Positions 4,488 to 6,579 of a DNA stretch of 64,000 nucleotides are shown here, in pieces; position 1 is the first letter of the stretch; every line of letters begins with the position of its first letter. The DNA is from Dehalococcoidia bacterium. Its GTDB lineage: Bacteria > Chloroflexota > Dehalococcoidia > DSTF01 > JACRBR01. The position numbers and the translations under genes were made by a program. A model generated the notes under the pieces. It did no database searches, had not been told where the DNA came from, and worked only from the letters and a program-made list of their open reading frames with translations. Location of the stretch: positions 194,773 to 258,772 of the forward strand of contig JBBDXD010000019.1 of the NCBI GenBank assembly GCA_040902535.1, written 5' to 3'.

Positions 4488-5594
4488 CTACGGCTCACGT
4501 GACTCGCGGATCACCGCCAGCGCGCGATCTTCGCCGCCCCAGTGCGTGACGGGGCGCTGGTTCGCGACGTAAAACGCGAAGATGTCGTCGCGCAACCGCG
4601 GCAGCCGCGGCGCGATCGCTCGCCGGTCGACGTCGGTGGGGATCGCGAGGAGCTTGTGGTCGCCGTCGCTCCGTTCGAGCACGTCGATGACGCGCACGTC
4701 GATGCGCTCGCCGCGGTCCCGCGGCCGGTCGTCGATGAGCATGATGTCGAGCCACTCGTCGTCGCCTGGGCTGATCAGCCGCGTCGAGCAACCGTAGTGC
4801 GTGAGCATCGGCGGGTAGTCGTGACGAAAGACCACCGCGTCGTCCTCGGCGACCCACTCCCAGCGCCCGTGCTCGCCCTCGCGCTGCTCGATCACCATCT
4901 CCAGCGTCATCTCGAGCAGGCGGCGCTTCATCTCGCCAGCGAGCCGGTCGGCGATGCGCGTCGGTTCCGGCACGCGGTACGTGCGCGTGCACGCCAGCGC
5001 CCACCGCTCCGCCCCGGCGAGCGATATGCGGTGGCCGATCGAGACGTAGACCAGGCGTACGCCATCGCGCGTGCGCAACGCGGCGCCGATCGTCTCGCCG
5101 TGGTGCGTGAGGTTGGCGCGCGCCCCGCGCTCCGTCGCCACACCCGCGTGCTCGCCGATCAGCAGCGACTTGGCGACGCCGATCGTCGGCACGTCGAGCA
5201 GCAGCCCGATGTGACATGCGAACCCGAAGCGACGCGGGTGCGCGTACCCGTGCCCATCGACCATCAGCAGGTCAGGCGTCGTGCGGAGTTGCTCGAACGC
5301 GCCGATCAGCACCGGTGTCTCGCGAAACGACAGCAGCCCGGGCACGTACGGAAACGTCACCGGCGTTTCGACGCAGACCTGTTCGACGATCTCGAGTGAC
5401 GGATACGCGAGCGCGACGGCGACGCCTACCGCGCGACCATGCAGCTTGTCGAATGCCACGTCCGCGCCGGCAACGAAGCGCACGCGCGCCGGATCGAGAT
5501 CGGCTTCGCGGATCACCTGCGACGCAAGCTCCGACTGCAGGCGCATGGCGTCTTTCGGCGAGAGGTCCCACGGATGGAGCTGGCGGACGCGCAT
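4488..5594 (-). CDS. nfi: Endonuclease V fused to a C-terminal inorganic pyrophosphatase-like domain
   Basis: The protein has 368 residues. Residues 1-225 form endonuclease V, which cuts the second phosphodiester bond 3' of deoxyinosine (or inosine in RNA). The metal and catalytic residues are all visible: D45 in AGADVAF, E92 in GLLSFRETP, D113 in DGHGYAHPRRFG and H188 in SIGHRIS. Residues 228-368 resemble soluble family I inorganic pyrophosphatase: E236, R244/E246, R257, Y267 in HYG, then D278-x-E280-xx-D283, then D310 and D312 followed by K314-LLAIP. The length exceeds standalone EndoV (about 220-240). ATG 5592-5594 has a GAGGTG Shine-Dalgarno. The pyrophosphatase assignment rests on pattern matching and its activity is inference. 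Confidence 0.87.
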   Translation of the reverse strand: MRVRQLHPWDLSPKDAMRLQSELASQVIREADLDPARVRFVAGADVAFDKLHGRAVGVAVALAYPSLEIVEQVCVETPVTFPYVPGLLSFRETPVLIGAFEQLRTTPDLLMVDGHGYAHPRRFGFACHIGLLLDVPTIGVAKSLLIGEHAGVATERGARANLTHHGETIGAALRTRDGVRLVYVSIGHRISLAGAERWALACTRTYRVPEPTRIADRLAGEMKRRLLEMTLEMVIEQREGEHGRWEWVAEDDAVVFRHDYPPMLTHYGCSTRLISPGDDEWLDIMLIDDRPRDRGERIDVRVIDVLERSDGDHKLLAIPTDVDRRAIAPRLPRLRDDIFAFYVANQRPVTHWGGEDRALAVIRESREP

Positions 5595-5673
5595 ACCATC
5601 ACCTCTTCGGCGGATCGCGCCCGCTGCCAGGTGCTGATCGCGCAACCGTGCGTTTTCGATAGGATGCTCACGC

Positions 5674-6579
5674 ATGCAACCTCACCCTAACGCACCATCG
5701 CCGGACGAACAGCTCGTGCGCAAATGGAGCCTCACCCCGGTCGAATACCTGGGTGGCCATGCTAATCAGCACTGGCGCGTAGAGTCGGGTGGGCGGAGCA
5801 TGGTGCTCACCAGGTACGCGGATCGGTTTCACGACATCGACTACCAGCTGCGTCTGCTCGCGCGTCTGCGGGAACTGCGATGGCCGGTGCCGGAGGCTGT
5901 CGACGAGCCTGCGCGAGTTGAGGGCCGCACCTGGTGTCTGTTCACGTGGCTTCCCGGTGCCGCCAGATGGCCGCATCCTGACCGTGAGGAGAGACGCGCG
6001 CGCGGACGCCTGCTCGCCGAGTTGCATGACGCCACCGCTCAACTAGGCAGCTTGCGACAACGCGACGGCTACGCCCTGTCCGACGAACTGATCCGCGATC
6101 CGGAACTGCCTCCGTTGCTGCGCGACTACGAACTCATCCGTCCCGTCGAGGGGCGCATCCTTCTGCGATATCTTGAACACGCGCTCGCGTGCTTCGACCG
6201 CATCGGACCGATACATGCCGAGACGATCGTGTTGCACGGCGACTTCAGCCCATGGAATCTTCTGTTCGAGGGCAACAACCTGACGGGCGTGCTCGATTTC
6301 GAGTTCGCGCACCTGAACTACCGCGTCGCTGACTTCGCGCTGTCCTGGCGCGGTTACCAGGACGACGTAATCGAGGGATACGAGGAAGTGCGCAGGCTCA
6401 CCGATCTCGACTGGGAGCTTCTCCTCCCTGCGTACTGGTCGTGGCTCTTCATGGGCGTCAAGGACGAAATCAAAGCGATCACTTCCGGACGGAAACCGGC
6501 GCATGACTTCGGGTGGCAGATCAGGCATCTCTTGAAGCGGTCGGAGTTGGCCGGGCGCCACGCGGCGTATCCGGAGTGA
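5674..6579 (+). CDS. Aminoglycoside phosphotransferase-family (APH) kinase
   Basis: A 301-residue protein kinase-like enzyme of the APH/choline kinase superfamily. The Brenner motif is VLHGDFSPWN (H188, D190, N195) and the metal-binding aspartate is D208 in GVLDFE. The N-terminal lobe contains VLTRYAD in place of the usual lysine strand, and a hinge-like FTWLPG. Family members phosphorylate small hydroxylated substrates such as aminoglycosides, homoserine or choline; which one here cannot be told, and resistance should not be assumed. The start lies 79 bases from the divergent endonuclease V gene, leaving a short shared promoter region. Confidence 0.87.
   Translation: MQPHPNAPSPDEQLVRKWSLTPVEYLGGHANQHWRVESGGRSMVLTRYADRFHDIDYQLRLLARLRELRWPVPEAVDEPARVEGRTWCLFTWLPGAARWPHPDREERRARGRLLAELHDATAQLGSLRQRDGYALSDELIRDPELPPLLRDYELIRPVEGRILLRYLEHALACFDRIGPIHAETIVLHGDFSPWNLLFEGNNLTGVLDFEFAHLNYRVADFALSWRGYQDDVIEGYEEVRRLTDLDWELLLPAYWSWLFMGVKDEIKAITSGRKPAHDFGWQIRHLLKRSELAGRHAAYPE

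Follow-up and report, generated by a model that had tools for sequence, protein, structure and literature searches.

The window analysed here, a stretch of 64,000 nucleotides from the genome of a Dehalococcoidia bacterium, contains a gene in which an endonuclease V (EndoV) is continued, within a single ORF, by a domain with the fold of family I inorganic pyrophosphatases (PPases), and the same protein is found in seven of the eight sampled genomes of the bacterial family. The second domain belongs to an apparently undescribed clade of this fold, with members carried by both EndoV and Nudix proteins, in which PPi-contact residues are lost and the metal site is kept. We give a probability of roughly 40% to the prediction that it is a metal-dependent hydrolase of altered specificity attached to EndoV.

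The gene and its reading frame

The gene is read on the minus strand, which the initial annotation had left unstated, from 5594 to 4488, and these are the exact bounds of its ORF; on the plus strand, the corresponding frame is interrupted by stops.

4488-5594, minus strand: EndoV-PPase-like fusion gene, 368 amino acids, ATG at 5594 and stop at 4488-4490 (uninterrupted ORF and orthologues)
5601-5606, minus strand: Shine-Dalgarno-like AGAGGT, about 6 nt upstream of the ATG at 5594 (read in the sequence)

A longer form of the protein, starting from an ATG at 5675, is possible; homology to EndoV starts near HPWDL. A gene for an APH-type phosphotransferase (5674-6579, plus strand) is divergent from the fusion gene and its start abuts this alternative ATG. 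There is also a plus-strand ORF of 285 amino acids (4542-5399), which is entirely antisense to the fusion gene and which we regard as a shadow ORF in G+C-rich coding sequence.

Distribution and origin of the fusion

Besides the source genome, the fusion is present in G016, G070, G137, G169, G212 and G231, while G191, of the same family, is without an EndoV match. Five of the copies are separate public MAG records (L003-L007). In other genomes of the class that have an EndoV, the match ends near residue 225 among the matches listed, and a search of 393 genomes of the class with a profile of the C-terminal domain found none joined to EndoV outside this family. The fusion was not found on plasmids, where the EndoV part alone gives matches. 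The EndoV halves of the seven fusions are monophyletic (support 89/93) and the neighbouring genes are partly conserved, with methyltransferase and release factor 2 genes on one side and a lipoprotein-like gene on the other. From this monophyly and the partly kept neighbourhood, the fusion reads as formed once, in the family's ancestor, and inherited vertically since. The initial annotation, which had proposed the fusion, had also warned of an assembly error joining separate genes; such an error, or a frameshift artefact, is ruled out by the occurrence of the fusion in seven genomes and by the partly conserved gene order. Our literature search, limited to open-licence papers, found no report of a fusion between EndoV and a PPase, and none is mentioned in a review on EndoV (PMC4693234).

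The endonuclease V domain

4944-5531, minus strand: endonuclease V domain, residues 22-217, with D45/E92/D113/D216 (PF04493 at 7.3e-72; Z of 25 to solved EndoV)

Judged by its sequence, the N-terminal part is a complete, normal EndoV, for which cleavage at hypoxanthine is predicted. It matches PF04493 (Endonuclease_5) over profile positions 2-198 of 198 with 241.6 bits, for a cut-off of 23.4, and the NCBIfam match of the fusion protein is deoxyribonuclease V. The catalytic set first put forward was D45, E92, D113 and H188. Its first three members hold, since they align with D43, E89 and D110 of Thermotoga maritima EndoV and are invariant in the seven orthologues, but H188 does not: it is variable, being Asn in the G016 orthologue, and the counterpart of T. 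maritima H214 in the alignment is D216, which is invariant in all seven. In the AlphaFold2 model presented below, the EndoV part superposes on solved EndoVs with Z values of 23-25 (VIA-align). The likeness to the E. coli and T. maritima enzymes (nfi, PF04493) thus covers the complete domain, D45, E92, D113 and the K142 position; in contrast, known EndoVs and the stand-alone relatives of the class end near residue 225, after which the fusion protein has a second folded domain. From earlier work, we know that EndoV nicks the second phosphodiester bond 3′ of hypoxanthine and that Pol I and ligase complete the repair (PMC6364969).

The second domain has a pyrophosphatase fold

4491-4922, minus strand: family I pyrophosphatase-fold domain of a noncanonical clade, residues 225-368 (PF00719; PDB profile search 2.3e-8; Z of 17-18)

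On the fusion protein, PF00719 matches residues 233-365 with 22.0 bits for the whole protein, just below the curated cut-off of 23.5, and with 26.0 bits, above it, when the C-terminal domain is taken alone; the C-termini of all seven orthologues match at E ≤0.1 (best, 5.7e-8). In the source genome, the HsdM methylase belonging to a type I restriction system (L002 1528-1800, C11) reaches 19-22 bits against the same profile, a match that we take as due to chance and do not accept as a genuine second PPase. Because such a score can be reached by chance, the single-sequence values of 22-26 bits are weak alone, and the assignment of the fold is founded instead on profile, structure and tree.

A profile made from the C-termini of the seven orthologues was searched against all PDB sequences. 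It retrieved 38 distinct sequences at E ≤1, the best at 2.3e-8. With one exception they are named inorganic pyrophosphatases; the exception, listed simply as APC40078 (3i4q), in turn gives a match to E. coli PPase at 3.5e-82. Aligned by hhalign with the family's own canonical PPases, this profile gave 97.3% and 2.3e-11 over 138 columns. An AlphaFold2 model of the full protein, built from the seven-sequence alignment, has a mean pLDDT of 77; within the second domain, the pLDDT per 10-residue block is 79-95, except for residues 241-260, where it is 52-56. Comparison of the model with solved PPases gave 5.9e-9 at best and a probability of 1.00 with Foldseek, and VIA-align superposed about residues 225-368 with Z values of 17.4-18.4 (140-144 residues, rmsd 2.2-2.6 Å). 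A C-terminus without similarity to the pyrophosphatase fold would have spoken against the annotation; instead, PF00719, the PDB profile search and the comparisons of the predicted structure all agree on that fold, and profile, fold and tree lead us to reject a chance resemblance. It could still be argued from the low PF00719 score, and from the comparable score of HsdM, that two genes were joined by an artefact or that the resemblance to PPases is fortuitous, but this is extremely improbable in view of the seven genomes, five of them as separate MAG records, of the structure and profile matches, and of the 53.6 bits to PF00719 obtained with a stand-alone relative (L069).

An altered active site under constraint

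4746-4763, minus strand: metal-ligand motif D278-D-E280-W-L-D283, corresponding to E. coli D65, D67 (here Glu) and D70 (alignment; D, E and D invariant in the seven orthologues)
4653-4667, minus strand: shortened loop D310-G-D312-H-K314, corresponding to E. coli D97, D102 and K104, with three residues deleted (alignment; deletion common to the whole noncanonical clade)

The residue comparison is based on aligning the clade to the E. coli PPase and to 22 canonical PPases, and E. coli numbering is used below unless stated otherwise. The residues on which the domain had initially been recognized (E236, R244, E246, Y267, D278, E280, D283, D310, D312 and K314 of the fusion protein) are all present and invariant in the seven orthologues. 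With family I PPases (PF00719, E. coli Ppa) the seven fused domains share, besides the fold, E20, E31, Y55, D65, D70, D97, D102 and K104. They differ from them by falling in a separate clade and by several changes: K29 is replaced by Arg, D67 by Glu, Y51 by Met and R43 by His (Gly in one of them), E98 and two neighbours are deleted from the D97-D102 loop, and neither Y141 nor K142 is retained. The canonical Tyr-Lys pair is absent, although the alignment is less sure near position 141, where six of the seven domains have a Tyr three positions earlier. The full 15-residue active site of E. coli PPase is thus not present in the fused domain; the 22 canonical loci all keep the set, except that E98 is D or Q in four.

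The altered site is nevertheless conserved. Across the fusions, invariance extends to 11 of the 14 active-site columns, compared with 28 of the remaining 124 (Fisher p 5e-5), and the invariant active-site columns include the substituted positions K29R, Y51M and D67E. The dN/dS ratios (Nei-Gojobori) of three closer pairs are 0.16, 0.15 and 0.25 for the PPase-like half, close to the 0.27, 0.14 and 0.29 of the EndoV half. Taken together, column conservation, changed residues included, and dN/dS indicate that the site is under selection in its altered form.

In the E. coli and yeast PPases, R43, Y141 and K142 touch the leaving phosphate. The attacking water of family I PPases is bridged by two metals held by Asp residues (PMC5507929), which we map to D65, D70 and D102. 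With the metal ligands and K104 kept and the contacts to the second phosphate lost, the site would suit hydrolysis that frees a phosphoryl group from a different leaving group, or binding alone. Since the metal site is kept and the grip on pyrophosphate altered, the domain probably does a job other than PPi hydrolysis, on a phosphate or nucleotide.

A noncanonical clade with two kinds of fusion

In the tree, the fused domains group with stand-alone proteins and with four proteins fused to a Nudix domain, apart from all canonical PPases (100/99); the branching order inside the clade is unsure because its deep branches are long. All members of the clade have the loop deletion and K29R, and E20, Y55, D65, D70, D102 and K104 are retained in the 22 members examined. 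The stand-alone members are L069, found in a different family of the class, and ten proteins from family f138, of another class. L069 is the closest to the EndoV-fused group (99/94) and also has D67E. In f138, the stand-alone genes (L156-L162) adjoin a conserved rhodanese gene and, in several genomes, epimerase and SMC-like genes as well.

The four Nudix fusions (L088-L091) come from families f105 and f126 of Chloroflexota. They consist of a zinc-ribbon-like N-terminus, a Nudix domain and a PF00719 match at 55-60 bits. They resemble the EndoV fusions in belonging to the noncanonical clade, with its loop deletion and K29R, but what precedes the module is a zinc-ribbon Nudix hydrolase, and the D67 position is occupied by Arg or Ala. 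Since one clade contains both fusions, the module has been attached to two distinct enzymes that hydrolyse nucleotides or nucleic acids.

A parallel is provided by the InPase domains described by Iyer et al. (2017; PMC5512222) in phage polyvalent proteins: these have the PPase fold, are used as modules, some of them fused to or beside Nudix, and are suggested either to act on phosphoesters resembling nucleotides or to clear PPi. InPase domains (PF18823) are, however, mainly phage-borne and without the beta hairpin between core strands 1 and 2, whereas the fused domain matches PF00719 and is encoded by a chromosomal gene. In our model, hairpin strands are predicted with low confidence at residues 244-248 and 253-257, between strands 230-237 and 266-274, in a region where the pLDDT is no more than 52-56. 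No match of PF18823 to the fusion protein is listed at E ≤10, though the filters drop weak matches; only the Nudix-fused L091 is matched, at 0.014.

Proteins of about 500 amino acids, with an N-terminal degenerate PPase-like domain and a long C-terminal part, are also encoded in three genomes of the phylum (L121, L125 and L126, in G410, G577 and G458); they have lost most of the active-site Asp residues.

Other pyrophosphatases of the family

A membrane H+-PPase is present in the source genome and, in all, in seven of the eight family genomes (the exception is 72% complete). A canonical soluble PPase was found in G016, G070, G191 and G212, thus together with the fusion in three of them, and none was seen in the other four. 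That the fused domain is the only PPase of the cell is consequently rejected. The product of rdgB/HAM1 cleaves dITP and XTP elsewhere, with release of PPi; rdgB occurs in all eight family genomes, and an rdgB/HAM1-like gene is the immediate neighbour of the canonical PPase genes L057 and L058 of G016 and G070. This adjacency links the ordinary PPase of the family to the clean-up of deaminated purines; it does not tie the fused domain to it directly.

One possible role for the second domain is that of a working inorganic pyrophosphatase, which would clear the PPi of repair synthesis after EndoV incision and so pull repair forward. The fold and most metal ligands are kept, Pol I synthesis finishing EndoV repair releases PPi (PMC6364969), PPi clearing is one of the roles proposed for the InPase modules, and half of the family genomes have no detected canonical soluble PPase. 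But R43, Y51, Y141 and K142 are lost, and the mutation K136R of the Plasmodium PPase, the counterpart of K29R by our mapping, results in a 40-fold higher Km and a 10-fold lower kcat (PMC5507929). With H+-PPases almost throughout the family and a canonical PPase beside the fusion in three genomes, we hold such a role to be unlikely. The second domain had been annotated as handling PPi or nucleotides; it is the PPi part of this proposal that is weakened, by the loss of the PPi-contact residues, by K29R and D67E, and by the other PPases.

Possible functions of the second domain

The main rival to a repurposed hydrolase is a non-catalytic module. Family I PPases are oligomers, and a pseudoenzyme of this fold might tune EndoV by sensing metal or phosphate, by oligomerising or by binding nucleic acid. 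The lost PPi contacts, K29R and D67E would agree with this, as would the complete loss of D67 in the Nudix-fused relatives, which suggests that some members of the clade may not be catalysts, and the degenerate PPase domains of other large proteins of the phylum. A decayed site, on the other hand, would not be expected to keep D65, D70, D97, D102 and K104 invariant in the seven fusions, with active-site columns conserved above the rest, and we consider a pseudoenzyme somewhat unlikely.

A hydrolase of changed specificity is the preferred reading. EndoV would nick DNA or RNA 3′ of hypoxanthine; the second domain would most likely still bind a divalent metal as well as a phosphate group and act on a nucleotide-like phosphate, for example a deaminated purine nucleotide, rather than on PPi; and the tether would couple incision at hypoxanthine with the removal of related small molecules. 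The analysis establishes the fusion, the fold, the orthology, the residue pattern and the constraint; from these we infer that the domain binds metal and is catalytic, what its substrate would be, and that it is coupled to EndoV. Three observations count against this reading: the D67 position of the Nudix-fused relatives, which is filled by Arg or Ala, the dN/dS between the source genome and G016 (0.63 for the PPase-like half vs 0.39 for the EndoV half), and the rhodanese and epimerase neighbours of the stand-alone relatives, which do not indicate nucleotides. The combined nucleotide-pool and repair activity suggested in the initial annotation is a reasonable conjecture, which the clade relatives fused to Nudix hydrolases strengthen. 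At this stage we may speculate further, although the proposal is rather improbable, that the clade is specific for deaminated or non-canonical purine nucleotides and was recruited separately by EndoV and by pool-cleaning Nudix enzymes, so that one polypeptide would combine the repair of hypoxanthine with the removal of its precursors.

EndoV figures in the open literature as an enzyme of one domain, and little is known of its partners in the cell. A fusion fixed across a bacterial family provides a candidate for such a partner activity, which can be assayed on one purified protein.
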